From Thiothrix sp. (lineage in GTDB: Bacteria; Pseudomonadota; Gammaproteobacteria; Thiotrichales; Thiotrichaceae): a stretch of 60,853 nt of DNA. Shown here piece by piece: positions 1 to 44,307 of this stretch. The position numbers and the translations under genes were made by a program. The notes under the pieces were generated by a model. The model worked only from the letters and a program-made list of their open reading frames with translations. It was not told where the DNA came from and did not search any database. Within the stretch, counting starts at the first letter, position 1. Each line of letters begins with the position of its first letter. Location of the stretch: contig NZ_JAQTLS010000023.1 of assembly GCF_028714775.1 (NCBI RefSeq), positions 1 through 60,853 of the forward strand. The letters are read 5' to 3'.

Positions 1-1
1 C

Positions 2-319
2 GACCCGGCGTGGGACGCTGAACTTCATGGACACCGCTTCCAGTGGGCGCGGGAGGATGCCCGTAAGGCAACGGCCTCCTTTGTGGAAGGCTGGCTGCAC
101 AATGTGGCAGTGGCTGTCCGTGAATTTGCCGCACCTGCACCAGACCAAGACATAAAAAATTGGATGGCGCAGAAGTACGGCAAACTGGGAAGCCACAAGC
201 CGCGCAAGGCTAACCATCTGGATGCCGATGGCGTCCAAGCTGGCTTGGATGCGGGTTCCCGCGTGCGCCTGCACCACGGCGTCAACGGCAAAGCAGAAAG
301 CCAACGTATGTTGGCCTGA
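2..319 (+). CDS. partial CDS, C-terminal end of a DUF2786-like protein
   Basis: The frame is open from the left edge to a TGA, giving 105 residues with no start in the window. The visible part has an alpha-helical stretch (WAREDARKATASFVEGW) and ends with a spaced G...G..VRLHHGV motif. That layout (helix, then D..GVQAG..AG..VRLH) recalls the C-terminal part of DUF2786/DUF7168 proteins common on plasmids and phages; this is recognition by eye, not by search. No function can be assigned. It is the last gene before the first structured repeat. Confidence 0.55.
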   Translation, partial: DPAWDAELHGHRFQWAREDARKATASFVEGWLHNVAVAVREFAAPAPDQDIKNWMAQKYGKLGSHKPRKANHLDADGVQAGLDAGSRVRLHHGVNGKAESQRMLA

Positions 320-457
320 TGTTAACTTACCGCTGAATACCGCCGAATGCCGAAGCTGCGCAGCCAGTGTTACAATCGCAATGACCCAACCAGCCTACTG
401 CTCCGTACTGTAGGCGCGGTTGGTTGCCAAGTGGGCTTTGCCCACTTGCACCTAACA
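320..457 (+). other. intergenic hairpins downstream of the first gene
   Basis: No gene is visible. Two strong inverted repeats are. At 386-423 CCAACC/GGTTGG encloses GCCTAC/GTAGGC. At 429-449 CAAGTGGGC and GCCCACTTG pair perfectly around a TTT loop. Neither has a T-tract, so they are not classical terminators; they could protect the 3' end of the upstream transcript. They are not repeated in the other intergenic copies. Confidence 0.5.
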
Positions 458-700
458 TTGGGCATTACCACACCATTTCAGTGTGGTGGCCTTGCCAGCC
501 GGTGACTGCTTAGCCAGTGCCGGGCGGCAAGGTTTCCTATGTGTAGTGTTCCACCCTGAACACGCCCTAGCTGCCAAGCCTTACGGTTTTGCGGCAAACC
601 CTATAAAGCCCTGACGTGCCACTAGCACAGGACGGCATACCTTCGGGTATGTTGGTGGCCTTCCTTTAACTTCATCCGCCCCTTACCGGGCTTTTACTGC
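458..700 (+). repeat. structured intergenic element, copy A (full length)
   Basis: This roughly 240-bp sequence recurs at 4037-4280 and 8754-8997. Visible hairpins in order are: ACCACAC/GTGTGGT (467-473/481-487); a CCTTGCC/GGCAAGG arm enclosing an ACTG/CAGT hairpin; GTGTTC/GAACAC (546-551/558-563); GCTGC/GCGGC around TTACGG; and GCCAC/GTGGC (618-622/655-659) enclosing CATACC-TTCG-GGTATG. It ends with GCCC/GGGC followed by TTTT, a weak terminator-like end near 690. The 169-bp central part lies between two copies of TGGTGGCCTT (484-493 and 653-662). Stems are kept while loops vary between copies, which points to selection on structure. Whether it acts as RNA or DNA is unknown. Confidence 0.75.
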
Positions 701-712
701 CTTTCTTATTTT

Positions 713-793
713 TAACCCACGCGGGGGCAAACAACCCGCTGGGGGATGTTTCCCCCCAAATTTCCAATGCTTTTCAATCCAAGGGGAAACACC
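713..793 (+). promoter_or_regulatory. Shine-Dalgarno-sequestering leader 1
   Basis: A first stem GCGGG/CCCGC is followed by GTTTCCCC (748-755), which is perfectly complementary to GGGGAAAC (783-790), the ribosome-binding segment of the DUF3275 gene. Compared with leaders 3 and 6-10 (GTTTCTCC with GGAGAAAC), a T-A pair is replaced by C-G on both sides, a true compensatory change. A run of G just before the 5' arm could pair with the same CCCC and release the ribosome-binding site, an alternative fold typical of a switch (inference). Confidence 0.75.
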
Positions 794-1612
794 ATGAAAC
801 CATCTATGAACCAATCTACTGAAGCTGTTGTTGTTAATGGCACACTAATGATCCGCGACATCCCTAAACGTGCTGGTGGGTCATTCAAGGTCGGTAAGTT
901 ATCCACCCATATCGGGCAATTCGAGGTTAAAAACCCTGAATTAGACCAATATGATGCGGGCACTTACACAGGCCAATTCTGCATTGACAAAATTTACCCC
1001 TCCCACTACATGGCTGGCGGGAAGATTGTCATTGAAATGCGTGCTGTCCTGTCGTGCTTTGTCCTTGCCGGTTTCGATGATGAAACAGGTGAGGTGGAGC
1101 CGTTAGAGGTTGATCCGGCAGAGGAGGAGGAAGCTGCACATGCAGCCCAGCCCGAACCTGCCCCAGCAAGCCAGCCTACCCAACAGGAAGCTGTCCCAGC
1201 ATCTGATGATGACGGTGAGCCAACAGAGGAGATGGCGCGGCGCATGGGCTTTGAAGTAAAAACCCATCGGCTTGTCCCCACCCGTGGGGAAGGCTATGTG
1301 GGCGTTGAGGTAAAGGACGGCAACCCAGTTGCTGCCCCAGCCGCCGAAGAAGCCCAGCCAGAACCTGATGCTGCCCCAGCGGACAACATAAAAGTGATGT
1401 CTGTTGAGGAAGAGCAAGCGTTCCGCTTGGAGCAAATGGACAAGGACACGTTTGGGGCTGAACTTTGGGCGCAGGTACATGCAGCCAACGTTGGGGACGA
1501 AGTAAAACTCGACCCAACGGTAGGCCGTAACAAGCTGCGTCCGCAGTGCGACCGCCTGAAAGCCTTGGGCTTCAAGTTCATTGCTGCCCGCCAAGTGTGG
1601 GAAAAACTGTAA
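794..1612 (+). CDS. DUF3275-family protein
   Basis: 272 residues. The N-terminal 100 residues match the pattern remembered for DUF3275 (an ICE-associated family of unknown function): VNGTLMIRDIP, FKVGKLSTHIGQFEVK, PELDQYDAGTYTGQF, IYPSHYMAGGKIVIEMRA. The middle (about 110-210) is a low-complexity Glu/Pro/Ala linker, and the end is a short basic segment. This start follows the leader and its GGGGAAAC ribosome-binding segment; an upstream ATG at 746 lies inside the leader stem and is unlikely. Cytoplasmic; biochemical role unknown. Presence supports an ICE/plasmid origin. Confidence 0.75.
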   Translation: MKPSMNQSTEAVVVNGTLMIRDIPKRAGGSFKVGKLSTHIGQFEVKNPELDQYDAGTYTGQFCIDKIYPSHYMAGGKIVIEMRAVLSCFVLAGFDDETGEVEPLEVDPAEEEEAAHAAQPEPAPASQPTQQEAVPASDDDGEPTEEMARRMGFEVKTHRLVPTRGEGYVGVEVKDGNPVAAPAAEEAQPEPDAAPADNIKVMSVEEEQAFRLEQMDKDTFGAELWAQVHAANVGDEVKLDPTVGRNKLRPQCDRLKALGFKFIAARQVWEKL

Positions 1613-1618
1613 ACCTGA

Positions 1619-1694
1619 CCAACCCTACCGGGGAGTGCCGCTCCCCTGTGGGGCGGTATTTCCTCCCCCATCAAACCGATTGAGGAGAAATGCC
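1619..1694 (+). promoter_or_regulatory. Shine-Dalgarno-sequestering leader 2
   Basis: Stem 1 is GGGGAG (1630-1635) with CTCCCC (1641-1646). Stem 2 pairs ATTTCcTCC (1658-1666) with GGAGAAAT (1684-1691), the ribosome-binding segment. Relative to the other leaders the terminal G-C pair is changed to A-T on both strands, again compensatory; one C is bulged. Confidence 0.7.
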
Positions 1695-1868
1695 ATGACA
1701 GAAAAGACCTATACCGTAGAGGTGCGTTACACCGAGGTGTACACCATCGAAATCCACGCAGGATCGCCAGAGGAGGCCAAAGACAAGGCCGACGACATGG
1801 CAAATGCTGGGCAACTTTCCAAGACCTACGGGGAATGGGATTCCACGGTAGTGGAAGGGGGTGAATGA
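1695..1868 (+). CDS. small acidic hypothetical protein (57 aa)
   Basis: Starts MTEKTYTVEVRYTEVYTIEIHAGSPEEAKDKADD. The pattern of an amphipathic beta-strand pair followed by a SPEEAKDKAD helix resembles small beta-beta-alpha domains that many plasmid proteins carry (for instance DpnD/PcfM-like), but the family is not recognised with certainty. Its stop overlaps the next start (ATGATGA), so the two are probably translationally coupled under leader 2. Confidence 0.65.
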   Translation: MTEKTYTVEVRYTEVYTIEIHAGSPEEAKDKADDMANAGQLSKTYGEWDSTVVEGGE

Positions 1869-2083
1869 TGGCTTCCATCATCAAAGACCCCGGTTCCGAA
1901 TGCGCTGATGACCATATCCTTGTGGTTGAAGACCCTGACAGTTTCGACAATTTGGCATGGGTCAAAGTCGGCGCTGATGTCGTTTACATCCGCAAGGATG
2001 CTGACGGCACATTGGTTGTACGTGCCATGCCGGATGACGGCAGCGATGCCCTGTACGGGGAAATCGTTGTCCCCCATCATTAA
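1865..2083 (+). CDS. hypothetical protein (72 aa)
   Basis: Very acidic, mostly beta-strand prediction by eye (ILVVEDP, AWVKVGADVVYIRK, TLVVRAMP, GEIVVP). It overlaps the upstream gene by four bases and has no leader of its own, consistent with coupling. No family is recognised. Two adjacent ATGs (1865 and 1868) are equally possible starts. Confidence 0.6.
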   Translation: MMASIIKDPGSECADDHILVVEDPDSFDNLAWVKVGADVVYIRKDADGTLVVRAMPDDGSDALYGEIVVPHH

Positions 2084-2098
2084 GCCTTTTTTATTTTT

Positions 2099-2162
2099 TA
2101 ACCCGCTGGGAGACAACTCCCAAGGGGATGTTTCTCCCTAAATGTCCCATAGGAGAAACACC
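2099..2162 (+). promoter_or_regulatory. Shine-Dalgarno-sequestering leader 3
   Basis: Stem 1 is GGGAG (2108-2112) with CTCCC (2117-2121) around a four-base loop. Stem 2 is GTTTCTCC (2130-2137) with GGAGAAAC (2152-2159), a perfect 8-bp pairing that covers the ribosome-binding site of the following gene. AGGGGA between the stems could compete for CTCC. Confidence 0.75.
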
Positions 2163-3344
2163 ATGACTGCCATTGCAAACACAACCATTACCGATACCCA
2201 ATACCTTTTATTTTCTGTCGCCAACATTGAGGCCGGGCCGGGCAGTGATGCCTACTTCCCCAGCAACATCTTTTGTACTGGGGCGCTAACCAACCCTGAC
2301 GGGCAGTTCCTCTACTTGTCCCTAATAGGCCGTGACACCGCCTTGCAGGAACTGAGGGGCAGGATGTCAGCCGGTAAGCTCAGCTCTTTCCTGATCCGCC
2401 AAGATGGCAAGCAACTTGGTAGTGGCAAGCAGGTTGGTAGCGGCTGGTTCAGCCGTGAGTGGCTTGGGCAAATGCAGTACCACGGTTCAAAAATCCCAAC
2501 AGACCTGTTTGGGGAATTGTCCCTGATGGTGCTGTACCACCCGCTCATGACCACGCCAGACAAGTCCAACCAAACAGCAGCCCTGCCTTTTATGGGGGGT
2601 GGGCAAGACCAGTGCTACTACGACCTTTGGAACGTGGTCAGGAACATCAGTGAAGTGCCCTTGCTGGACACTTGGCGTGATGTGGTGATGGCGATGTTAA
2701 CCCCGCTTGGCTGGATGAAACCCTTGGTTGGTTTCAACTGCAATGCACTCTACGCCAAATTGGGGAGCGAAATGTCTGCCATTATCAGCGCCAATGTCCG
2801 TTCCGGCGCATTGTGTGCCGATGGCAGCGCCCACATGGGCAAGCTCACGCTTGACCCCGACTACGGGCGCACACCACCTGAACCCGTACCGTCAGAACCA
2901 CCGCAAGGTGGCGATGGGGGTGATGGTTTCTGGGATGACGCAGAAGTCATGCACACTTACCCACGTGCGCAAGCGATTGAAGACGGTGATTTGGTTGATG
3001 TATCGGATACCAGCGAAGCCCATGAAGCGGGTTTTCGTGTGCCAGTTGCATTAACCCGCGCCGTTTGGAATCGCTTTGTCGAGTGGGATAATGACGAAGT
3101 TGCTGCCGTGCAACGCCGCCTTGGGCAAAGCACTGCCGGACGGTTGTGGGATGTCCTCTACATGGCGAGGTACGGGATCAGTATTGCACCCAAAAACCAA
3201 GGCGGTACATTGCTGTATGAACTGTATGCCATCCCGCGTGACGGACGCAGTGTCAATGCACGCAAGATCAACCTCAAATTGCATTCTGGTGGTGGTGATA
3301 ATGGCGAACATGTCATAACCATCATGCTTCCCGATGAGGACTGA
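2163..3344 (+). CDS. two-part hypothetical protein with DUF6573-like C-terminus
   Basis: 393 residues. The first 250 are not recognised. After a Pro/Gly/Asp-rich linker (about 240-260) the C-terminal 130 residues read YPRAQAIEDGDLVDVSDT..EAGFRVPVALTRAVWNRFV...GRLWDVLYMAR, which fits DUF6573, a family widespread on plasmids and phages with no known activity. The ATG at 2163 directly follows the leader; the earlier ATG at 2142 lies within it. The N-terminal octapeptide MTAIANTT nearly matches that of the helicase at 9081 (MTTIANTT). Confidence 0.65.
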   Translation: MTAIANTTITDTQYLLFSVANIEAGPGSDAYFPSNIFCTGALTNPDGQFLYLSLIGRDTALQELRGRMSAGKLSSFLIRQDGKQLGSGKQVGSGWFSREWLGQMQYHGSKIPTDLFGELSLMVLYHPLMTTPDKSNQTAALPFMGGGQDQCYYDLWNVVRNISEVPLLDTWRDVVMAMLTPLGWMKPLVGFNCNALYAKLGSEMSAIISANVRSGALCADGSAHMGKLTLDPDYGRTPPEPVPSEPPQGGDGGDGFWDDAEVMHTYPRAQAIEDGDLVDVSDTSEAHEAGFRVPVALTRAVWNRFVEWDNDEVAAVQRRLGQSTAGRLWDVLYMARYGISIAPKNQGGTLLYELYAIPRDGRSVNARKINLKLHSGGGDNGEHVITIMLPDED

Positions 3345-3377
3345 GCCTGACCGTTTAATTTTCTAACTTCTTTTCTT

Positions 3378-3459
3378 AACCCTGCCGGGAAATGCTTTCC
3401 CGTAGGGGACGTGTTTGTCCGGCGTAATACCTTTACGTTAATTTTTCTGGAGAAACACG
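3378..3459 (+). promoter_or_regulatory. Shine-Dalgarno-sequestering leader 4 (divergent)
   Basis: Stem 1 is GGGAAA (3387-3392) with TTTCCC (3396-3401); in most other leaders the same position holds GGGAG/CTCCC, so sequence changed on both arms while pairing was kept. Stem 2 is GTTTGTCC (3413-3420) with GGAGAAAC (3449-3456), with one C-to-G mismatch. The stem-2 loop is the longest of the set (28 bases). Confidence 0.65.
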
Positions 3460-3792
3460 ATGACGCCTACTGAACTGCTTAACCAGCAACTTGAGGCGAT
3501 GATGGCTACTTTGGCTGAAATCCCTGAAACGGATATGCCGGGTAATGCCGCCCACTACCTCAACCGCCTCGTGCATTTGGTCGCCAACAACGGCGTGGAT
3601 GAGCCGATGGTCACATCCTACTGGTACACCGAGGACTTTGATTCTGTTTTGGAGGATCGCGGGGAAGAATGTCCCATTGACCGCGACCATGCCCGCAAAC
3701 TGTTTGCCCTGATTGACCGTACCCATAATGCCGAGATCGGCATCAATTGGGATGTCCTCAAGTGCGCATTGGATGAGGGGGTGTCAGCATGA
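3460..3792 (+). CDS. hypothetical protein (110 aa)
   Basis: Acidic, mostly helical protein (NQQLEAMMATLAEIPE, AAHYLNRLVHLVANNG, DHARKLFALIDRTHNAE). No family is recognised. It follows leader 4 directly and its stop codon overlaps the next start by four bases. Confidence 0.6.
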   Translation: MTPTELLNQQLEAMMATLAEIPETDMPGNAAHYLNRLVHLVANNGVDEPMVTSYWYTEDFDSVLEDRGEECPIDRDHARKLFALIDRTHNAEIGINWDVLKCALDEGVSA

Positions 3793-4022
3793 AACTCAAT
3801 GGCATCACTGTACATCCAAAACACAAGCCAAAAACCAAGCCTGTAGTACAGCCCAACGGTCACTGCCGCTGGGAGTCTGCCACAGGAACTGGGGCAAATG
3901 TAACGTTACACCGCCAAAAGCGGCTTGCCATTTTCCGTGCTGCACAACTGCACGGGATAGTGCGGGCTGTGACCTATTTGCCGGATGGGATTGTCCAGCA
4001 TGGCAAATGGCAGCGGGTTTGA
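3789..4022 (+). CDS. small basic hypothetical protein (77 aa)
   Basis: Lys/His-rich N-terminus (ITVHPKHKPKTKP) then a short beta-rich part ending LPDGIVQHGKWQRV. It overlaps the acidic 110-aa gene by ATGA and has no leader. The basic charge next to an acidic partner could mean a complex, but nothing else supports that. The structured element copy B begins 15 bases after the stop. Confidence 0.5.
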   Translation: MKLNGITVHPKHKPKTKPVVQPNGHCRWESATGTGANVTLHRQKRLAIFRAAQLHGIVRAVTYLPDGIVQHGKWQRV

Positions 4023-4036
4023 AGGCGGCTTTAACT

Positions 4037-4280
4037 TTGGGCATTACCACACCTTGTGGGTGTGGTGGCCTTGCCAGCCGTTGACTGGTCAGCACCAGTG
4101 CCGGGCGGCAAGGTTTCCTATGTGTAGTGTTCCACCCTGAACACGCCCTAGCTGCCAAACCTTACGGTTTTGCAGCAAACCCTATAAAGCCCTGACGTGC
4201 CACTAGCACAGGGCGGCATACCTTCGGGTATATTGGTGGCCTCCCTTTAACTTCATCCGCCCCTTACCGGGCTTTTACTG
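4037..4280 (+). repeat. structured intergenic element, copy B (full length)
   Basis: Second full copy. First hairpin ACCACACC/GGTGTGGT (4046-4053/4059-4066) has loop TTGTG, unlike the loops of the other copies. ACTGGT/ACCAGT forms a 6-bp hairpin where copy A has only four pairs. GCTGC/GCAGC is fully Watson-Crick where copy A has a T-G wobble. It runs from just after the stop at 4022 to leader 5. Confidence 0.75.
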
Positions 4281-4295
4281 CCTTTCTTAATTTTT

Positions 4296-4361
4296 AACCC
4301 ACGCGGGGCAAACAACCCGCTGGGGGATGTTTCTCCCCAAATATCCTTTAAGGGGAAACGT
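4296..4361 (+). promoter_or_regulatory. Shine-Dalgarno-sequestering leader 5
   Basis: GCGGGG/ACCCGC stem 1, then GTTTCTCC (4329-4336) opposite GGGGAAAC (4352-4359). Here one pair is T-G, the exact intermediate between the T-A state (leaders 3 and 6-10) and the C-G state (leader 1). Confidence 0.7.
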
Positions 4362-4601
4362 ATGGAACGCACCAAGAAAAACGGCGGGCCTATTACTGGC
4401 AGCATCCCTGAGGCACGGCAAGCAATCGCTGCTGCGCTGGCAGTGTTGCGCAGGCATGGCATATCCAAGGTTGTCCTGAACGCTTTTGCGGCAGACCAAC
4501 CGGAAGATGCCGGTTGGTGGGTAGTCCCCGCTGCTGGGGATGACCCGTCCTTTTATGTGAAGGCTCTGGAGGTACAAGTGCAAGCGGAAACGCAAGCCTG
4601 A
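4362..4601 (+). CDS. hypothetical protein (79 aa)
   Basis: Sequence includes PEARQAIAAALAVLRRHGISKVVLNAF, a clear helix followed by a strand, and an acidic end. It has its own leader and stands alone between two leaders. No family recognised. Confidence 0.55.
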   Translation: MERTKKNGGPITGSIPEARQAIAAALAVLRRHGISKVVLNAFAADQPEDAGWWVVPAAGDDPSFYVKALEVQVQAETQA

Positions 4602-4627
4602 CCATCCCGCCGCGACCTTTCATTTTT

Positions 4628-4698
4628 AACCCTCTGGGAGAAGCACTCCCAACAGGGGATGTTTCTCCCCCGAATGTCAATTCTTAGGAGAAACTATC
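4628..4698 (+). promoter_or_regulatory. Shine-Dalgarno-sequestering leader 6
   Basis: Stem 1 GGGAG (4636-4640) with CTCCC (4646-4650); stem 2 GTTTCTCC (4661-4668) with GGAGAAAC (4687-4694), perfect. The intervening AGGGGA can pair with CTCCCC as an alternative. It precedes the methyltransferase gene. Confidence 0.75.
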
Positions 4699-5832
4699 AT
4701 GGCTAAAGCACTTATGTTCCCGCGCCTTGCGCAAAACTTTATCAAGAACGGTTACTACCCCACTGATGATGTGACCATTGCCCGTACCTTGTCCGCACTT
4801 GTTGCGGCAGAGGATGGGGCAGGCCAACTTCGCATCCTTGACCCGTGCGCGGGTGAAGGTGTGGCCCTGGCTGAATGCAAACACGCATTGGGCAAAGGCA
4901 GTACCGTTGCCTTCGGCATTGAATACGACGCTGAACGCGCTTGGCACGCCAAAACCGTGCTGGACCACTGTATCCACGGTGATTTCAATGGCTGCGTTGT
5001 GTCCCCCGGTTCATTTGGCCTACTGTGGCTGAACCCGCCTTACGGGGATATGGTGAAAGACGATGAAGGCAATGGCGCAAACGGCCTGTTCAAGGACAGC
5101 CGCCCGCGCTTGGAAAAGCACTTTTACCAACGCACCCACGGCCTGTTACAGGTTGGTGGTGTGATGGTGCTGATCCTGCCCTCAACCAGTTACGACAAGC
5201 AATTGTCGGCTTGGGTTGCCACCCATTTCCGGGAAGTGAAGGTATTCTGCGCTGCCACCAACAAGTTCAAGCAAACCGTGCTGTTTGGCATCAAGCAGCG
5301 CAGTAATGGCAATATTGACACCGCTTTGCGCCAGCACCTGCTGGCTATTGGGGTGGGTGATGTTGTGCCAGACGAACTGCCTGAAACGTGGTTTTTCCAG
5401 CCTTATACCGTCCCTGCCGTGCCTGAGACCCGCCGCCCATTCAAGTTTGCTGCGGCATCCTTGGATGCGGCGCAACTGCAACAGGAGCTTGCCAAGCACC
5501 AAGGTGCGCTGGAACAGCAGTTTACCGGGTTGTTCCAGCAGGCTGCTGCCCAAGCCAACCGCCGACCACTGCGCCAGATGACGGGGTGGCACACGGCATT
5601 GGCACTTGCCGCAGGGCAAGTGGGTGGTGTGGTGCGTTCCGACGATGGGCGTGTGTACCTGATCAAGGGCAGCACGCACAAAGAAAAACGCACTGAAACC
5701 CGCATCCATGAAAACCTTGATGGCTCACAAACGGAAGAACGCATCGACACTGACGTGTTCGTGCCGGTGATCCGCGCCCTCGACTTCACCCCCAACAGCC
5801 CTACCTACGGGGACATGCTGATGATCCGGTGA
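4699..5832 (+). CDS. DUF6094-like SAM-dependent DNA adenine methyltransferase
   Basis: 377 residues. The SAM-binding motif is seen as RILDPCAGEGVALAEC (about residues 45-60), followed by GIEYDAERA and the catalytic motif LNPPYGDM near residue 112. NPPY marks amino-group methyltransferases acting on adenine (N6) or glutamine; genomic context favours DNA. A strand-rich segment VMVLILPSTSYD follows, as in gamma-class enzymes. A recognition domain might lie in the C-terminal half, and no cognate endonuclease is adjacent, so a solitary modification enzyme that shields the element from host restriction is plausible (inference). It shares the leader type with the SNF2 helicase downstream. Confidence 0.75.
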   Translation: MAKALMFPRLAQNFIKNGYYPTDDVTIARTLSALVAAEDGAGQLRILDPCAGEGVALAECKHALGKGSTVAFGIEYDAERAWHAKTVLDHCIHGDFNGCVVSPGSFGLLWLNPPYGDMVKDDEGNGANGLFKDSRPRLEKHFYQRTHGLLQVGGVMVLILPSTSYDKQLSAWVATHFREVKVFCAATNKFKQTVLFGIKQRSNGNIDTALRQHLLAIGVGDVVPDELPETWFFQPYTVPAVPETRRPFKFAAASLDAAQLQQELAKHQGALEQQFTGLFQQAAAQANRRPLRQMTGWHTALALAAGQVGGVVRSDDGRVYLIKGSTHKEKRTETRIHENLDGSQTEERIDTDVFVPVIRALDFTPNSPTYGDMLMIR

Positions 5833-5847
5833 TTTTTAACGTTCGGC

Positions 5848-5919
5848 CAACCCTGCTGGGGAGCATCACTCCCTGCGGGTGGTGTTTCTCCGGTGTGCTT
5901 TTACTTTTGGAGAAACATC
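5848..5919 (+). promoter_or_regulatory. Shine-Dalgarno-sequestering leader 7
   Basis: Stem 1 GGGAG (5859-5863) with CTCCC (5869-5873); stem 2 GTTTCTCC (5884-5891) with GGAGAAAC (5909-5916), perfect. The loop of stem 2 is T-rich. This leader heads a four-gene unit. Confidence 0.75.
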
Positions 5920-6300
5920 ATGAATCACCAATACCGGGCAGCCGTTGCCCAAGATGGCAACTTTAAACGCCTGTTTGTCTTTAACAGGGATGGGGTATCC
6001 ACCAACACTGTGTTGGGTGGCTTACTCAATTACCAACCCGACCAGCCGCTTTGGACAACTGAGGCAGTTGGCAAATGTGACTTGAGTGGCACATCCATCG
6101 TTGATGTTGGTAGGGCAGTGTTGGTCTTCGGATCGCACGTCTTCCAATGCAATATGGAGATATTGGAGGATTGGGATGCCAACTCCCTGATAGGCCGCGA
6201 TGATTTCATCGTGTCCTATCTGGATACCTTGTGGCGGATGTTGCCGGACAGTGCCATCACCGAAAGCCAGTATTTTCTGGTTCAAGGGGGTGAAGCATGA
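5920..6300 (+). CDS. hypothetical protein (126 aa)
   Basis: First gene of a four-gene unit. Begins MNHQYRAAVAQDGNFKRLFVFNRDG; mixed alpha/beta, acidic in the C-terminal half. The ATG at 5920 is chosen because it follows the leader; the upstream ATG at 5893 lies in the stem-2 loop. Overlaps the next gene by ATGA. No family recognised. Confidence 0.6.
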   Translation: MNHQYRAAVAQDGNFKRLFVFNRDGVSTNTVLGGLLNYQPDQPLWTTEAVGKCDLSGTSIVDVGRAVLVFGSHVFQCNMEILEDWDANSLIGRDDFIVSYLDTLWRMLPDSAITESQYFLVQGGEA

Positions 6301-6590
6301 GTGCGGCAATCACCATCACCACATTCGTAGGTGTCACATACCAGTTTCAGGCAGTCCCAATGGATCATCTCCCCAGTGCTGACCCGCAGGATTTCTGGGA
6401 TTTTTGGCAAGAAACCGTTGAAGGCACAAACCTTTCAAGGGCGGAAAGCGACCGTCTCCTGCAATTCTTGGTCGAACATAAAACCGATGCCGTTACCGAC
6501 GGGGAAGCGTATTACACGCTGACACGGGCCGGGCTTGCCCGCTGTGACCCGTTTTACCGGGAAAAGCGCCAGCAAGGGGATGTTGCATGA
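6297..6590 (+). CDS. hypothetical protein (97 aa)
   Basis: Acidic, with an Asp/Trp-rich centre (DPQDFWDFWQETVEG) and helix ESDRLLQFLVEHK. Coupled at both ends (ATGA overlaps with neighbours). No family recognised. Confidence 0.55.
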   Translation: MSAAITITTFVGVTYQFQAVPMDHLPSADPQDFWDFWQETVEGTNLSRAESDRLLQFLVEHKTDAVTDGEAYYTLTRAGLARCDPFYREKRQQGDVA

Positions 6591-7003
6591 AACCTGAACC
6601 TTGGAATGCTGAACCCACTGCGCTGGATGAAACCATCGTAGTGGCCGACCATGAGTGGGCGGTACACCGTGAAAGCGGTTTACGTGTCCGTAAATTGAGG
6701 GGGCAAACTGTGCTTAAACAACGTTGGAACCAATGGCTGTTTGAAGTCACGGACGGGCTTTTTTCTGCGGTCTTCCTTTATGACCAGTGGCCTACATACC
6801 ACCAGCCTATAAGGAAGGGGTTGGCTATTTTCAGCGAACTGTTCCCGGTTGGTGATGCCCGTGTCGGGCATTGGTATGAAGTCAATGGGCTTGATGAAGT
6901 CCCTTTGGTTGAAATCACTAGCCTTTACCCTTTACAGGGGCAATACGCAGGCCATTTATACACGTTGGACATTGGGCAGTTGGGTGATTGCCTGACCGCT
7001 TAA
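6587..7003 (+). CDS. hypothetical protein (138 aa)
   Basis: Contains several Trp residues and alternating strands (HEWAVHRESGLRVRKLRG, WNQWLFEVTDGLFSAVFLYDQWPTY). Overlaps the upstream stop by ATGA. No family recognised; cytoplasmic by lack of signal sequence. Confidence 0.55.
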   Translation: MKPEPWNAEPTALDETIVVADHEWAVHRESGLRVRKLRGQTVLKQRWNQWLFEVTDGLFSAVFLYDQWPTYHQPIRKGLAIFSELFPVGDARVGHWYEVNGLDEVPLVEITSLYPLQGQYAGHLYTLDIGQLGDCLTA

Positions 7004-7026
7004 TTTTACTTTGGAGAAATTTGATC

Positions 7027-7236
7027 ATGGTTACGGACATCCCGATTGATGTAGTGGCTGATGGGGAACCCATCACACGCATAACGCCAAGCCAGCTTGG
7101 CACAGGCAAAGCTGTTATCTGCCCAACTGATGCCCCAGAAATGATGGGTTGCGGGGCCGTGGTTACTGGCCTGCCAGATTGGGAAGGGTTTTATGATTGC
7201 CCAAACTGTGGGCTGTTCTTCAAATCCCCCGCTTAA
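7027..7236 (+). CDS. putative zinc-ribbon miniprotein (69 aa)
   Basis: Carries C-x-x-C (CPNC near the C-terminus) plus two earlier cysteines (ICPTDAPEMMGCG), enough for one zinc site. Preceded by TTTGGAGAAATTTGATC, a good ribosome-binding site, but unlike other unit-heading genes no complementary upstream segment is visible. Its stop runs directly into the short repeat copy D. Confidence 0.55.
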   Translation: MVTDIPIDVVADGEPITRITPSQLGTGKAVICPTDAPEMMGCGAVVTGLPDWEGFYDCPNCGLFFKSPA

Positions 7237-7238
7237 CA

Positions 7239-7310
7239 TTGGGCATTACCACACCTTCGGGTGTGGTGGCCTTCCTTTAACTTCACCCGCCCCTTACCGG
7301 GCTTTTACTG
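7239..7310 (+). repeat. structured intergenic element, copy D (central module absent)
   Basis: Contains the first hairpin (ACCACACC-TTCG-GGTGTGGT) and the terminal GCCC/GGGC-TTTT, but the 169-bp central module present in copies A, B and C is missing. The junction holds a single TGGTGGCCTT where full copies have two flanking ones, so this is either a clean deletion by recombination between the direct repeats or the state before insertion of the module. Confidence 0.75.
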
Positions 7311-7324
7311 CCTTTTTTATTTTT

Positions 7325-7392
7325 AACCCACGCGGGGACAAACAACCCGCTGGGGGATGTTTCTCCCCAACTATCAATTCAAGGAGAAACAC
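7325..7392 (+). promoter_or_regulatory. Shine-Dalgarno-sequestering leader 8
   Basis: GCGGGG/CCCGC stem 1; stem 2 GTTTCTCC (7359-7366) with GGAGAAAC (7383-7390), perfect. Follows the short repeat copy D, showing that leader and central module are separable. Confidence 0.75.
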
Positions 7393-7725
7393 ATGACAGG
7401 CGAATACAACGTTGGGCAAATCATTGAAGTGGATGGCGGACGATCCATCATTGTTGAGGTATCCCACTTTTTCTATGACGCAATCCCACTGGATACGGTC
7501 TTTTGGTCAGGTGCCAGTCAGGAAAAAGCGTTAAGCCAAGGCTGGGCAATCGTCGAGGTTGGTGGGAAGCTAGAAATCCAGCGTTATGATGAATCCAAAC
7601 GCTTTGATAGTGACGAAGCTGCCCGACACTTTGTCGAAAACGCGGGTGAGGAGATTTGCCGGAGAGCCATTGCTTTCGTGTTGCTGCGCAATGCGGAAAG
7701 GGCAAATGCGGCGGGGGATGTGTGA
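7393..7725 (+). CDS. hypothetical protein (110 aa)
   Basis: Begins MTGEYNVGQIIEVDGGRSIIVEVS; beta-rich N-terminal half, helical C-terminal half (DEAARHFVENAGEEICRRAIAFVLLRNAERAN). ATG chosen after the leader rather than 7357, which lies in the leader. Overlaps the next gene by TGATG. No family recognised. Confidence 0.6.
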   Translation: MTGEYNVGQIIEVDGGRSIIVEVSHFFYDAIPLDTVFWSGASQEKALSQGWAIVEVGGKLEIQRYDESKRFDSDEAARHFVENAGEEICRRAIAFVLLRNAERANAAGDV

Positions 7726-8108
7726 TGGCAACCGTCAAATCCATCCCTGCCTTGCTGGATATGAAAAGGTACCGCGTCCAATCCATCCGTGCCTTGCTGG
7801 ATGTGCTTGCAGCCAGCAAACAAAACCCCTCCATCCGTATCAATGTCCCCGGTGATTTTCCTATCACTGGGGAGTATTTCCTGCGGAATATCTGGCATAG
7901 GGGGTTACAAACTAAGTGTAGCCGTGGGTTGCCTGCCCTCTCCCAGCGGGGCGGACAGGCTTGCCACGACATGCAGGCGGATGCACGCCATATCAACGCC
8001 TATTACCGTGACCGGGTGCGCCATCCGGGTTGCCGCAACTTATTGCGCAACCCAAAACTGAAACGGCGTTACCCACACATCGACAACCAACCCAAAAGTT
8101 GGGATTAA
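7725..8108 (+). CDS. basic hypothetical protein (127 aa)
   Basis: Strongly basic, with Arg/His/Lys-rich C-terminus (YYRDRVRHPGCRNLLRNPKLKRRYPH) suggesting nucleic-acid contact (inference). The 5' end has an imperfect internal duplication (SIPALLDM and SIRALLDV). Start chosen at the TGATG overlap with the preceding stop; a longer form from 7656 would overlap too deeply. Confidence 0.5.
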   Translation: MATVKSIPALLDMKRYRVQSIRALLDVLAASKQNPSIRINVPGDFPITGEYFLRNIWHRGLQTKCSRGLPALSQRGGQACHDMQADARHINAYYRDRVRHPGCRNLLRNPKLKRRYPHIDNQPKSWD

Positions 8109-8117
8109 CCCATTAAC

Positions 8118-8190
8118 CAACCCTGCCGGGGAGCAACCACTCCCTGCGGGGTGGCTGTTTCTCCGGCGCACTTTACTTTGGAGAAACAGC
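8118..8190 (+). promoter_or_regulatory. Shine-Dalgarno-sequestering leader 9
   Basis: Stem 1 GGGAG (8129-8133) with CTCCC (8140-8144); then GCGGGG; stem 2 GTTTCTCC (8157-8164) with GGAGAAAC (8180-8187), perfect. Nearly the same as leader 7. Confidence 0.75.
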
Positions 8191-8733
8191 ATGAAACCTA
8201 TCGACTTGAATTTAGGCATCCCGATGGATGCCAGCCGTTGTGCAGCATTACATGGCTACTTGGAACTCCACCTGCAACTGTTTGATGTGGTGGATTATGA
8301 GGTAACGGGTGATGGGAAGCCTGATGATTGCCGGTTGTGGTACGTCCACCGCGTGGGTGGCATCCCTGCCCTGATGGTTCAGGAACTTGTCTTCTTTGAC
8401 CCAAACCGGCACTGGCTTGGGCTAGACCGGAAGGGTGAAGCGGAATTGAGCTATGCCAAAGATGTCCATTACGCGGCAGATTGCCCGCTGCGGTTATTGG
8501 CGTTGGCACCTGCCATCAACCACCCGTGGCGGCTTAGCGTCCGTAACTGGTGGAAAACCCTGCTGCGTGAAGGCGTCAATGCCTTACGGGAAGTCCATGA
8601 CTGGTTTGGGCAGCGCCACAACGGTGATGCCCAGCATAACCGTGAATGTGTCCGGGAAAGCATTGCGCGGCTCCGTGAAATACGTGGGGTTATCGCCATG
8701 CGCAAGGGACTCTTGCGCCAATCGCGCAACTAA
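8191..8733 (+). CDS. hypothetical protein (180 aa)
   Basis: N-terminal alpha/beta part (ALHGYLELHLQLFDVVDYEVTGDGKPDDCRLWYVHRVGG) and basic helical C-terminus (VRESIARLREIRGVIAMRKGLLRQSRN). No signal sequence. No family recognised. Structured element copy C follows about 20 bases after the stop. Confidence 0.6.
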   Translation: MKPIDLNLGIPMDASRCAALHGYLELHLQLFDVVDYEVTGDGKPDDCRLWYVHRVGGIPALMVQELVFFDPNRHWLGLDRKGEAELSYAKDVHYAADCPLRLLALAPAINHPWRLSVRNWWKTLLREGVNALREVHDWFGQRHNGDAQHNRECVRESIARLREIRGVIAMRKGLLRQSRN

Positions 8734-8753
8734 CATTACCCACTAACGTTAAC

Positions 8754-8997
8754 TTGGGGCATTACCACACCTGCGGGTGTGGTGGCCTTGCCAGCCGTTG
8801 ACTGGTCAGCACCAGTGCCGGGCGGCAAGGTTTCCTATGTGTGGCGTTCCACCTTGAACGCGCCCTAGCTGCCAATCCTTACGGTTTTGCAGCAAACCCT
8901 ATAAAGCCCTGACGTGCCACTAGCACTGGGCGGCATACCTTCGGGTATGTTGGTGGCCTTCCTTTAACTTCATCCGCCCCTTGCCGGGCTTTTTACT
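8754..8997 (+). repeat. structured intergenic element, copy C (full length)
   Basis: Third full copy. In the hairpin at 8844-8849/8856-8861 the second pair is C-G (GCGTTC/GAACGC) where copies A and B have T-A (GTGTTC/GAACAC): a compensatory double change. The first hairpin has loop TGCG. The GCCCcttgccGGGC-TTTTT end gives the best terminator-like tail of the copies. Confidence 0.78.
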
Positions 8998-9008
8998 GCT
9001 TTTTTATT

Positions 9009-9080
9009 TTTAACCCACGCGGGGGCAAACAACCCGCTGGGGGATGTTTCTCCCCAATTTTCAATTCAAGGAGAAACACC
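9009..9080 (+). promoter_or_regulatory. Shine-Dalgarno-sequestering leader 10
   Basis: GCGGG/CCCGC stem 1; stem 2 GTTTCTCC (9046-9053) with GGAGAAAC (9070-9077), perfect. GGGG just before the 5' arm can pair with CCCC at 9052-9055 as a competing hairpin. Heads the helicase gene. Confidence 0.75.
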
Positions 9081-11411
9081 ATGACTACTATCGCCAACAC
9101 CACCCCTGCCATTTCCTTGGCAGACTTCGTAAAAGACTTCGGCACTGCCTTGCGTGATGCCGTAGACCAACAAAACCCGCCCATCTTCCACCCGGAAGAT
9201 GCCCGCCCGGCCCGCGATGCGGTGATGGATGGGCTGTTGCGAAAGCCGTTTGCGGCGCAACGTGAGGCTGTCCATGCCATGGCTGCATTATTGGTGGATC
9301 AAGGTGAAAAAGCCGGGATCATCAACGCAGAAATGGGGACTGGCAAAACCATGATGGCCATTTGTGCATCTGCGGTACTGCAAGCTGAAGGCTACCCACG
9401 CACCTTGGTCATCTGCCCTCCCCACTTGGTTTACAAGTGGCGGCGTGAGATCAAGGATACTGTCCCCAATGCCCGCGTCTGGGTATTGAACGGTGTGGAC
9501 ACTTTGGCGCGTCTGCTGCAATTGCGTGAAATGGTGAAAACCGGGGGCAACAACAATGCGCCTGAGTACTTCGTCATGGGACGTGTGCGGATGCGCATGG
9601 GCTATGAATGGAAGCACGCTTTTGCCCACAAGCTGGTCAGCGGGCGTAACCCTGACACGGGTGAGTTTTTCGCCCATAAGTTGTTGGCTTGCCCCAAATG
9701 CGGCACGGTTTACCGTGATGCAGAAGGCCAAGTTTACCGTACTGAACGGGGTTTGCCTGACAAACGTCTGGCCTGCAACCACAAGCACGTTGATGATGAC
9801 GGCGTGGAACATACCTGCGGTGAGCAACTGTGGACACTGATCCGCAAGGAACCCCTGAGAGGCAAGCGCAAGCTGGTCTTGGACGGGTTAAAGCAACTCC
9901 CCACCATTGGTGACAAGACGGCAGAACGCCTGATTGCCATGTTTGGTGAGGAGATGTTGGGCAATATGTTGGCTGACAACATCCATGAGTTCGTCAACTT
10001 GATGGATGATGAAGGCAATATGGTGTTCAACGACCGCCAAGCCGACCGCATTGAACGGGCCTTGGGTAAAACCGAGATTTCGTTTGGGCAAGGCGGCTAC
10101 CAGCCAACCGAATTTATCAAACGGCAATTGCCCGATGGTTATTTCAGCTTGCTGGTGACTGATGAGGCGCATGAGTTCAAGAACGGCGATTCCGCACAAG
10201 GCCAAGCCTTTGGAGTGTTGGCAGCAAAAGCCCGCAAGGTGCTTCTTCTGACTGGCACACTGATGGGCGGTTATGCGGATGACCTGTTCCACTTGCTGTT
10301 CCGTGCCAACCCACGCCGTATGATCGAAGATGGATACAAATACCGCAACCGCTCTTTGGGTGGTGCGGTGATGGCATTCATGCGTGACCACGGCATCCTC
10401 AAAGACGTGTTCAAAAGCACAACGGGCGGGAGCCATAAAACCTCACGCGGGGAAAAGGACTCGCAGCGCACCTCCAAAGCACCGGGCTTCGGCCCGACTG
10501 GCATTTGCCGTTTCATCCTGCCTTACACGGTGTTTTTGAAACTCAAGGACATCGGTGGGAACGTATTGCCCAGTTACGATGAGCATTATGTTGAAGTGGG
10601 GATGGAGGACGGGCAGCGGGATGCGTATGAAAGCCTGTCAGCAGACCTGACGTATGAAATGCGTAGGGCATTGGCAAAAGGCGACACTACCCTGCTGGGT
10701 GTGGTGCTGAATGCGCTGCTGCGTTGGCCTGAAACCTGCTTCCGTGATGAAACCGTGCGCCACCCGCGCACTGGGGACATCTTGGCAGGAGCGCCTGCGC
10801 TGTTTGGTGAAACTGAAAGCATCCTGCCGGGCGGCACTGTCCAAGTGGATAGCCTAGCCCGTTGGACGCCGAAGGAACAGAAGCTGCTGGACATCTGCAA
10901 GGCTGAAAAGGCCAAAGGACGCCGCGTGTTGGTGTACACCACCTACACCGGCAAACAGGACACCTCCCAGCGCCTCAAAACGCTGTTGGGTACTGCTGGC
11001 CTGAAAACCGATGTGCTGCGCTCCAGCGTTTCCACTGAACAAAGGGAAGACTGGATACTCGACCGCGTTGACCGTGGTATCGACGTTCTGGTGTGCAACC
11101 CGGAACTGGTGAAAACTGGCCTCGATTTGTTGGAGTTCCCAACCATCGTGTTCATGCAAACCGGCTATAGCGTCTATACGCTCCAGCAAGCTGCCCGCCG
11201 TTCTTGGCGGATTGGGCAGCGGTTGCCAGTTGCTGTGTACTTCCTCGGTTATGAAAACACCGCACAAACCGCGTGCTTGGCGCTGATGGCGGAAAAGATC
11301 GCGGTCAGCCAAAGCACCAGTGGCGACATGCCCGACACTGGCTTGGATGTGCTCAACCCCAACGGTGATTCCGTAGAGGTGGCGCTCGCCAAGCGGATGT
11401 TGGGCAAGTAG
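9081..11411 (+). CDS. SNF2-family DEAH helicase/translocase
   Basis: 776 residues. Motif I is NAEMGTGKTMMA (near residue 82), Ia LVICPPHLVYKWRREI, II TDEAHEF (about 359), III LLTGTLMGG, and the C-terminal lobe has a motif V/VI region VKTGLDLLEFPTIVFM...QQAARRSWRIGQ, diagnostic for SWI2/SNF2-type double-stranded DNA translocases. Two Cys pairs near 200-250 (CPKCG and CNHKHVDDDGVEHTCG) form a likely zinc-binding insertion between motifs Ia and II. Such helicases on plasmids accompany methyltransferases or restriction-like modules; here the NPPY methyltransferase lies 3 kb upstream with the same leader type. Exact substrate and role unknown. Confidence 0.85.
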   Translation: MTTIANTTPAISLADFVKDFGTALRDAVDQQNPPIFHPEDARPARDAVMDGLLRKPFAAQREAVHAMAALLVDQGEKAGIINAEMGTGKTMMAICASAVLQAEGYPRTLVICPPHLVYKWRREIKDTVPNARVWVLNGVDTLARLLQLREMVKTGGNNNAPEYFVMGRVRMRMGYEWKHAFAHKLVSGRNPDTGEFFAHKLLACPKCGTVYRDAEGQVYRTERGLPDKRLACNHKHVDDDGVEHTCGEQLWTLIRKEPLRGKRKLVLDGLKQLPTIGDKTAERLIAMFGEEMLGNMLADNIHEFVNLMDDEGNMVFNDRQADRIERALGKTEISFGQGGYQPTEFIKRQLPDGYFSLLVTDEAHEFKNGDSAQGQAFGVLAAKARKVLLLTGTLMGGYADDLFHLLFRANPRRMIEDGYKYRNRSLGGAVMAFMRDHGILKDVFKSTTGGSHKTSRGEKDSQRTSKAPGFGPTGICRFILPYTVFLKLKDIGGNVLPSYDEHYVEVGMEDGQRDAYESLSADLTYEMRRALAKGDTTLLGVVLNALLRWPETCFRDETVRHPRTGDILAGAPALFGETESILPGGTVQVDSLARWTPKEQKLLDICKAEKAKGRRVLVYTTYTGKQDTSQRLKTLLGTAGLKTDVLRSSVSTEQREDWILDRVDRGIDVLVCNPELVKTGLDLLEFPTIVFMQTGYSVYTLQQAARRSWRIGQRLPVAVYFLGYENTAQTACLALMAEKIAVSQSTSGDMPDTGLDVLNPNGDSVEVALAKRMLGK

Positions 11412-11436
11412 CCTTTACCTGCCCCTTAACAGCCGA

Positions 11437-11461
11437 CCCCGCCTTGTGCGGGGTTTTTTTT
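11437..11461 (+). terminator. intrinsic terminator after the helicase gene
   Basis: CCCCGC (11437-11442) and GCGGGG (11448-11453) pair around a five-base loop and are followed by eight T. It closes the accessory block and separates it from the transfer operon. Confidence 0.9.
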
Positions 11462-11614
11462 GCCTGCCGACAGCCATCCGCCAAAATCATAAGTAAATTC
11501 TATTGTCAAGTTTTCGCCCACGGCATGAATTTTGTGCTGGGGATGAAAAATTGCTTGCCGTTTGGGTGCTTGTGACAATTGCCGGGCTTTTTAAACAAGG
11601 ACATAGGCGAAGCA

Positions 11615-11995
11615 GTGGTGAGGTATCCCAACAAAAGCACATGGGTGCTGATGGCAGTTTTGGCAACAGCGCTGGCAGCTTGCAGCGTTAGCCCCAACCC
11701 ATTCCTTGCGGGTGCAGGATGCCGTGCAGACGGCACTTCCCTCCCGTGGAAACGGCCCACATTCCCCGCCAAACCCCCGGCAAAAAGGCCACCTGTCCCC
11801 GTGTTTGCCTTCCCAGCAGTCCTCCAACGCCCCGCTGGTTACGCAGAAAGGTCGGCAGTGTACGTGTTTGCCGGGGCAGCCCCCGTGGGCGTGCCTGCGG
11901 ATACCCTGCCCCCGCCGATGCCGGATGCTGTTGGGGACAATACCCTCACCGAATTGCCCATCTGGGACAGCATGGCGGCAGAAAACCAACAATAA
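11615..11995 (+). CDS. putative lipoprotein at the head of the transfer operon
   Basis: About 126 residues from GTG. The lipobox LATALAAC (cleavage before Cys near residue 23) follows a short hydrophobic helix; the mature part is Pro/Ala-rich with no recognised domain. Position just upstream of the pilin gene suggests an accessory envelope role such as entry exclusion or pilus assembly, but no sequence motif shows this. Start is uncertain: TTG 11579, GTG 11615 and GTG 11618 are all in frame; AGGCGA is best spaced for 11615. Confidence 0.6.
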   Translation: MVRYPNKSTWVLMAVLATALAACSVSPNPFLAGAGCRADGTSLPWKRPTFPAKPPAKRPPVPVFAFPAVLQRPAGYAERSAVYVFAGAAPVGVPADTLPPPMPDAVGDNTLTELPIWDSMAAENQQ

Positions 11996-12031
11996 AACGG
12001 CCGATTTTTTTAACAACAGGAGACAACCCTT

Positions 12032-44298: not shown

Positions 44299-44307
44299 GA
44301 GATGCTC

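Follow-up and report, generated by a model that had tools for sequence, protein, structure and literature searches.

The first 9 kb of a 60,853-nucleotide contig of Thiothrix sp. (NZ_JAQTLS010000023.1; this whole stretch is hereafter denoted the window) contain ten short leaders, each comprising two hairpins, H1 followed by H2, the second of which buries the Shine-Dalgarno (SD) sequence before a start codon. The leader family is not local; members occur in three classes of Proteobacteria and on well-known plasmids. Covariation in the aligned sequences establishes H1, H2 and a further helix (A:B), in which the 5′ arm and apical loop of H1 imitate the SD-containing arm of H2 and pair with the 5′ arm of H2. 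On this comparative evidence, the family is widespread and its antisequestor conserved, and the finding is larger than first described. We consider it fairly likely that the leader acts as a two-state translational switch, in the form of an assisted ON/OFF device with six strands.

Architecture of the ten window leaders

The window leaders are each 66–85 nt long. H1 is formed by AACCC, an inner hairpin such as GGGAG...CUCCC, and then GGG; H2 is formed by a 5′ arm (typically UGUUUCUCC), a loop, and GGAGAAACA, with the SD in this 3′ arm and the start codon next to it. The strands are hereafter denoted S1 (AACCC), A (H1 5′ arm and apical loop), A′ (H1 3′ arm), G (GGG), B (H2 5′ arm) and SD arm. 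A sequence-only reading of the window had described ten leaders with a segment complementary to the SD; all are present, within 0–3 nt of where it had put them. The pair changes it cited are likewise present, with one pair being C-G in leader 1, U-G in leader 5 and U-A in leaders 3 and 6–10, a second being A-U in leader 2, and the inner stem of leader 4 reading GGGAAA/UUUCCC.

When folded alone, every window leader forms H1 and an SD-burying H2, with z values of −2.6 to −6.2 relative to 200 shuffled sequences; for leader 1, five of the 200 shuffled sequences fold equally well, for leader 7 one does, and for the other eight none do. The pattern TGTTTCTCC-N(10–35)-GGAGAAAC has 11 matches in the window (six on the plus strand and five, at the same sites, on the minus strand) versus none in 100 shuffles.

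All ten leaders lie on the plus strand; the bit scores given refer to two covariance models, R1 and R2. Leader 1 (714–796; S1 716–718, A 722–733, B 747–755, SD 783–786; 49.9 bits with R1) precedes a DUF3275 gene starting at 794, and leader 2 (1621–1697; S1 1623–1625, A 1629–1636, B 1657–1666, SD 1684–1687; 23.9 bits with R1, 46.4 with R2) a start at 1695. Leader 3 (2100–2165; S1 2102–2104, A 2107–2114, B 2129–2137, SD 2152–2155) precedes a DUF6573 gene starting at 2163; it scores 86.5 bits with R1, for which it was a training sequence. Leader 4 (3378–3462, start 3460; S1 3380–3382, A 3383–3394, B 3412–3420, SD 3449–3452; 31.9 bits with R1) has one mismatch in the middle of H2, and is followed by leader 5 (4296–4364, start 4362; S1 4298–4300, A 4304–4314, B 4328–4336, SD 4352–4355; 61.5 bits with R2). 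Leader 6 (4628–4701; S1 4630–4632, A 4635–4645, B 4660–4668, SD 4687–4690; 65.4 bits with R1) stands before a DUF6094 methyltransferase gene starting at 4699. Leaders 7 (5849–5922, start 5920; S1 5851–5853, A 5854–5866, B 5883–5891, SD 5909–5912; 34.2 bits), 8 (7325–7395, start 7393; S1 7327–7329, A 7333–7344, B 7358–7366, SD 7383–7386; 49.9 bits) and 9 (8119–8193, start 8191; S1 8121–8123, A 8124–8136, B 8156–8164, SD 8180–8183; 29 bits), all scored with R1, come next, and leader 10 (9012–9083; S1 9014–9016, A 9020–9031, B 9045–9053, SD 9070–9073; 55.5 bits with R1) precedes an SNF2-type helicase gene starting at 9081. The remaining six window genes behind leaders have no Pfam match over the cut-off.

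Distribution of the family

Model R1, built from four copies including window leader 3, recovered every window leader, as well as further ones in two other contigs. The window's own genome has 21 matches at E ≤ 0.01, in five of its 70 contigs, and 12 of the 95 genomes searched (own included) carry matches, which are often clustered. Removal of four antisense mirror matches from 89 matches in 16 loci left 85 listed, two of which have no start codon at the end, with one more placed a base late. Model R2, rebuilt from 73 copies, matches 36 of 369 genomes across the class, equivalent to 35 of 272 genera (E ≤ 0.01), and 16 of 397 genomes across the phylum (E ≤ 0.001), own genome included in both cases; at E ≤ 0.05 there are 266 matches, a few of them antisense, over 54 loci, most of which were picked for having hits.

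R2 also finds leaders in eight of eight plasmid regions taken (75 matches at E ≤ 2, a count that takes in weak and antisense ones), namely from pKLC102 and from plasmids of Enterobacter ludwigii, Stutzerimonas stutzeri, Escherichia coli (IncC), Tistrella mobilis (an alphaproteobacterium), Nitrogeniibacter (a betaproteobacterium), Shewanella baltica and Pseudomonas veronii. In scans of the whole records with stricter filters, the matches cluster in one block per record, for example at 40.8–43.2 kb in pKLC102, 78–105 kb in the IncC plasmid (13 sense-strand matches at E ≤ 0.01) and 65–76 kb in the Tistrella replicon of 1127 kb; the one exception is the Shewanella plasmid, with a further site at 30 kb.

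An alignment search with DUF6094 gave 464 relatives in named genomes, from which 80 loci were kept and 78 searched, two already-used Thiothrix loci being left out. R2 has 258 matches at E ≤ 0.01 in 73 of these 78 loci, 257 of them on the gene strand, in hosts including Bordetella hinzii, Achromobacter, Cupriavidus, Pandoraea, Thauera, Pseudomonas, Acidomonas and Gluconacetobacter; many copies are near-identical, and at least two loci (L146 and L150) appear to repeat loci used before (L129 and L063). A contig search with the window DUF3275 protein found no relatives. The covariance model and plasmid search that the sequence-only reading had proposed place the family in gamma-, beta- and alphaproteobacteria, on plasmids as well as in genomes, and its suggestion of a cis-regulatory RNA family that hides the ribosome-binding site before many accessory genes is strongly supported by covariation, gene position, and the plasmid and genome matches.

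Covariation of H1 and H2

Selected pairing in the stems, first proposed from the ten copies, holds in wider alignments of 73 and 150 leaders, in both of which H1 and H2 covary strongly. For 73 leaders (71 distinct) double changes are seen in 14 of 18 pairs, with 95 double-change cells compared to 20.1 ± 6.7 on shuffling; for 150 leaders (146 distinct) they are seen in 16 of 18 pairs, with 315 double-change cells compared to 94.8 ± 9.6. In the latter set 94.4% of cells are paired (82.3% shuffled), and the covariation score is 0.376, versus 0.154 for shuffled partners and 0.04–0.10 when partners are slid by 1–3 columns. These alignments were fitted to the structure, which favours it, and the shuffles leave relatedness in place; partners were therefore also swapped within single elements, giving z values of −10.1 for the H2 arms and −11.2 for the H1 arms. 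Comparison of own with swapped H2 arms gave z of about −19 in 134 non-redundant leaders and −13 in 40 further leaders. GU pairs outnumber AC pairs by 170 to 68 in H1 and H2 and by 70 to 12 in A:B, an excess consistent with folding of the sense RNA.

An alternative helix between H1 and H2

Alternative pairings were examined as the duplex energy of segments from the same leader relative to that of swapped partners, for many segment pairs and in alignments not fitted to A:B. The 200 aligned rows (150, plus the top 50 of a second alignment) comprise 196 distinct sequences, of which 190 have all anchor columns. For A:B, own partners average −13.75 kcal/mol and swapped partners −10.14 kcal/mol over the 190 leaders; in the 134 that are non-redundant the values are −13.68 and −9.83 kcal/mol (z −19, 0 of 200 swaps as good), and swaps within single elements give z −10.7. 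Later loci yielded 104 distinct usable rows of 150, including 40 leaders that are redundant neither among themselves nor with the first set; for these, own and swapped partners average −13.69 and −9.19 kcal/mol, respectively (z −12.1, 0 of 500).

Because A also pairs within H1, the apical loop was tested alone, with the register set by the CUCC/GGAG core only. Positions 4–6, which mostly lie in the loop and are unpaired when H1 and H2 are formed, covary with B (z 6.0, 7.8 and 4.3), and do so within elements (z 4.1, 4.8 and 2.9). Three-way changes are seen in two leaders of RadC genes, with A, B and the SD arm reading CGGGGAUACA, UGUGUCCCC and GGAGACACAA in one (L066) and CGGGGGAUCA, UGGUCUCCCG and GGAGAUCAG in the other (L062). 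Two mutually exclusive helices, H2 and A:B, are hence both kept by covariation, as is expected of a bistable SD switch.

The alternative fold originally suggested, in which a G-run next to the H2 5′ arm pairs with that arm, did not survive this comparison, own segments being no better than swapped ones (z −1.0, +1.1 and +0.4); pairing of the H1 5′ arm and apical loop with the H2 5′ arm takes its place. Pairing of A′ with the SD arm, of the H1 loop with the SD arm, and of A with the H2 loop gave no clear signal (z between −2.2 and +0.3).

These results bear on a simpler explanation, in which H1 and H2 form a static translational attenuator that merely lowers translation of strongly transcribed genes, A resembling the SD arm since H1 arose from an H2-like sequence. 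In its favour, the closed fold is strongly preferred at equilibrium, and a review describes bet and exo of SXT as being kept low by a translational attenuator (PMC4542580). Static attenuation would, however, give the apical-loop bases of H1 no pairing role, yet these covary with B, and A:B fits leader by leader both within one element and in the further leaders; we regard it as an unlikely explanation.

A proposed two-state translational switch

In the two-state switch that we favour, the strands follow in the order S1, A, A′, G, B and SD arm. In the OFF state, H1 would be formed by S1:G and A:A′ and H2 by B:SD, burying the SD; in the ON state A would capture B, A′ could pair with G, and the S1 strand and SD arm would be set free. 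The partners would form a chain, S1-G-A′-A-B-SD, such that opening H1 at its 5′ side would reach the SD like falling dominoes. The energies, the A′:G pairing and the release of the SD are predictions of folding calculations, and the ON state is presumably the translated one. The switch would stand before genes for single-strand-DNA, antirestriction, methylation and helicase functions, whose transcripts would be made but would be translated only in the permissive state.

In transcripts truncated ahead of the SD arm, A:B is predicted to be a better fold than H1 in 164 of the 190 leaders (112 of 134 non-redundant; median difference −4.7 kcal/mol), as it is in 35 of the 40 further leaders. It is favoured in nine of the ten window leaders, leader 5 being the sole exception, and in window leaders the A:B form of the cut transcript also has A′ paired to G. 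Swapping H1 among 75 leaders of the genus Thiothrix lowers the number in which A:B is favoured from 66 to a mean of 51 (45–56), and to 57 (53–60) when the swaps are made within single elements. When A:B is forced, the mean probability of an unpaired GGAG rises from 0.09 to 0.43 (174 leaders).

Several observations weigh against the proposed switch. For the finished leader, the best fold lies a median of 7.7 kcal/mol below ON, which is as good as the best fold in only 13 of 190 leaders; along the path of minimum-free-energy (MFE) folds by transcript length, ON is never visited in 34 of 190 leaders and is the end point in 19; and GGAG is, on average, less than half free even with A:B forced. When the alignment register is held fully fixed, A:B gives a weak signal (mean excess pairing 0.049), because the H1 stem varies in length, and the anchored and energy-based tests were used instead. 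A′:G shows no leader-specific covariation (z −1.1), S1:G gives z −6.3 and −3.3 with two segment sets and −1.3 with another, both of these pairings hardly varying, and A′ has a small signal with B in the 40 further leaders (z −2.1, 16 of 500). The estimated barriers are a median of 18 kcal/mol from H1 to ON and 16 kcal/mol from ON to OFF (147 leaders; paths without pseudoknotted toeholds). Finally, among candidate regulators on the eight plasmid records, ProQ/FinO is found in none and CsrA in one; an element-encoded regulator of either kind does not appear to be general, and a host protein may act instead.

The height of the barriers in both directions implies slow spontaneous switching and the need for an opener, favouring an assisted switch. 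Such an opener could act at the 5′ flank of H1, where, in 173 leaders, a pyrimidine-rich, G-poor tract precedes AACCC; the share of G is 1–16% at positions −10 to −1 of the leader, compared to 16–25% further upstream. This composition would suit ribosomal protein S1 or a 30S subunit in standby binding, or another single-strand RNA binder; another RNA-binding protein or a small RNA may also be envisaged.

Two other proposals for the trigger are variants of the assisted switch, and their likelihood overlaps with it. A kinetic timer would have the young transcript pass through A:B with a free SD and later refold to OFF; timer-like refolding is known for the hok and MS2 leaders. In its favour are the preference for A:B over H1 before the SD arm is made and the MFE path, which visits ON in 156 of 190 leaders; H1, however, forms first, and the computed barrier from H1 to ON is about 18 kcal/mol (toehold invasion through the loop being outside the model), which makes a timer rather unlikely. 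In the second variant, a ribosome terminating on the upstream gene opens H1. Some leaders do fill short intergenic gaps, for example between bet and exo in IncC, and in 76 of 196 cases an upstream open reading frame (ORF) has its stop at most 24 nt away from the leader or slightly within it. In 116 of the 192 leaders with an upstream ORF end within 400 nt, however, the stop is at least 25 nt away, and only nine upstream stops lie within 3 nt of a leader; such coupling is improbable, and as a general mechanism it is not supported.

Ribosome stalling on a short upstream ORF, as in attenuation of the cat/cmlA kind, could also open a stem, and a passage in PMC5890775 describes short-ORF attenuators for phenicol-resistance genes. 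Short ATG ORFs ending in or next to H1 are, however, seen in 17 of 174 leaders compared to a mean of 19.4 in shuffled upstream DNA (six versus 5.5 when an SD-like signal is required); without an excess of such ORFs, leader-peptide attenuation is very improbable. The same is true of an RNA thermometer. The strand opposite the SD is U-rich, as might suit melting, yet the predicted accessibility of GGAG is 0.09 at 15–37 °C and only 0.16 at 65 °C (174 leaders), that is, the SD is predicted to be closed across the physiological range.

Genes behind the leaders

Of the 150 best hits, 144 end exactly on the ATG (141) or GTG (3) of an ORF that is at least 40 aa long or truncated at the locus boundary; five more end on an ATG that opens a shorter frame, and the last has no start codon at its end. 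Because the model contains ATG, ending there is partly a matter of construction, which does not apply to the open frame that follows. Among the proteins encoded behind leaders, 142 reach 40 aa or more; these form 52 clusters, 33 of them single proteins, most of which had no Pfam match where scanned. Named from one or two members each, the clusters include RadC (16), DUF3577 (11), SNF2 helicase (10), DUF6094 methyltransferase (10), DUF6573-like (9) and DUF3275 (8), with smaller ones for ArdC (3), RecT (3), DUF932 (2) and a VWA/CobT protein; a single-stranded DNA-binding protein (SSB) comes from the longer list of 85. On the IncC plasmid, leaders precede ssb, bet, a lambda-type exonuclease gene, a VWA protein gene, yfaE and others. 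The IncC ssb leader (L139, 13314–13381) has two tandem ATGs, with the match ending on the second (13379) and the annotation starting at the first (13376).

A single RNA device seems to control translation across entire blocks of genes on mobile DNA. Enrichment of SSB, methyltransferase and anti-restriction genes in plasmid leading regions is reported in PMC11541004, and control of conjugative elements appears to be described mostly at transcription, for example by SetCD and AcaCD (PMC4542580, PMC4207636). If the proposal is correct, many genes for antirestriction, recombination, SSBs, methylation and helicases in major families of plasmids and integrative and conjugative elements (ICEs), including IncC and pKLC102-like ones, would be under a second, shared layer of control at translation, and many DUF genes would become one regulon. 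No description of a shared translational layer on conjugative elements was found in the literature searched. More tentatively, since the balance is slightly to the negative in our judgement, the leaders may be an unclassified RNA class that forms an element-wide translational regulon, in which a six-strand domino switch with SD-arm imitation stands before up to 13 or more genes per element, in ICEs and plasmids of the three proteobacterial classes, and all copies open in response to a single shared trigger, for instance a factor that is present while the element establishes itself or transfers. A direct question is then what opens H1. The covariance model can be used to annotate leader genes and their true starts, and the family offers a natural example of an RNA with one strand bound to remain complementary to two others.

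Comparison with known systems

The translational attenuator upstream of bet in SXT/R391 ICEs is also reported for IncA/C plasmids, its function there being untested, in a passage of PMC4542580. The bet leader of the IncC plasmid pM214_AC2 fits R2 (L139, 13925–14003; 30.7 bits, E = 4e-5) and ends on the bet start at 14001; one family member, the bet leader, thus probably has experimental support. The SXT bet attenuator was reportedly mapped by Garriss (2013). Like the family, this attenuator is a leader before bet that hinders translation of a conjugative-element gene, but it concerns one gene in the review, whereas the family has 13 matches on the IncC plasmid alone, spans three proteobacterial classes and has the A:B fold; SXT was compared by description only. 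The 'translational attenuator' mentioned beside SXT in a part of PMC5890775 concerns floR, not the bet leader.

In the comparison with Rfam that the earlier reading had proposed, no Rfam 15 family reached its gathering score over any leader scanned; radC RNA (RF01754) instead lies beside leaders or overlaps H1. It has no match at the cut-off in the window, L139 (IncC), L141, L149 or L109, and is absent among the seven Rfam matches up to E = 5 in window positions 1–12000. A sub-threshold hairpin-ribozyme match (E = 1.3) is antisense to leader 9. No Rfam family matched the leader that precedes DUF3577 in L065; a 2017 paper may reportedly describe a 'DUF3577' RNA motif.

radC RNA is a 149-nt structure without a ribosome-binding-site hairpin, but it shares gene blocks with the leaders and ends directly 5′ of some of them, both on pKLC102 and the plasmid of E. 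ludwigii and in seven DUF6094 genome loci. In pKLC102 (L136) and E. ludwigii (L137), five of seven radC RNAs end 10–34 nt before a leader (three pKLC102 and two E. ludwigii leaders); two more in E. ludwigii have no leader found nearby. The seven DUF6094 loci (L164, L174, L179, L189, L190, L196 and L216) contain 20 radC RNAs and 28 leaders at E ≤ 0.01; 13 of the leaders have a radC RNA just upstream and seven of the radC RNAs have no such leader. In four cases the last radC RNA hairpin overlaps the leader by 29–31 nt, approximately the length of H1, leaving H2 outside by length. Where they adjoin, the two make a compound 5′ leader of two structured RNAs. Since leaders without radC RNA are common, radC RNA is a neighbour and not the same thing; it is a table entry, as a candidate motif, in the part of Weinberg 2010 concerned (PMC2864571).

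The conserved unpaired leader sequence consists of the 5′ pyrimidine tract and AA. In translational riboswitch platforms, sequestor and antisequestor helices exclude each other, as do H2 and A:B, but no conserved unpaired aptamer was seen in the leaders. A metabolite riboswitch was rejected, as the flank, start region and H1 loops have no conserved unpaired core, the H2 loop being judged by eye only. Translational operators of phage and ribosomal-protein regulons resemble the family in that several genes share one leader type, but no binding protein has been identified for the leaders. No description of the leader family was found in literature titles and abstracts, with subscription papers and supplements outside the search.

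Genomic context of the window

The window is a complete contig of a 4.30-Mb Thiothrix genome in 70 contigs. It has an F-type conjugation gene set at 12–31 kb, with TraC above its NCBIfam cut-off and TraE, K, B, U, N, F, H and G at E values of 1e-12 to 1e-118, yet below theirs. Contigs C17 (L009) and C25 (L008) of the same genome have related copies of several leader genes with the same leaders, which suggests two related elements or one split element.

A repeated intergenic module of approximately 257 nt, containing several hairpin-like repeats, ends where leader 1 begins (460–713, plus strand), with other copies at 4039–4294 and 8755–9011; these lie directly upstream of leaders 1, 5 and 10, and a short form (7250–7324) precedes leader 8. 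The module is present at ten places in the Thiothrix genome of the window and in five more genomes of the genus, with none outside the genus among 30 genomes searched. It is possibly a promoter or terminator, or a counterpart of radC RNA, although Rfam does not call it as such.

At 36550–46071 on the minus strand, the window encodes a two-partner secretion (TPS) pair, in which a 2582-aa protein carrying TPS and haemagglutinin-repeat domains is accompanied by a ShlB/FhaC-type transporter. Outside the window, the leader-bearing locus L063 contains a group II intron (Rfam D1D4-7, 128 bits) at 774–923 on the minus strand.

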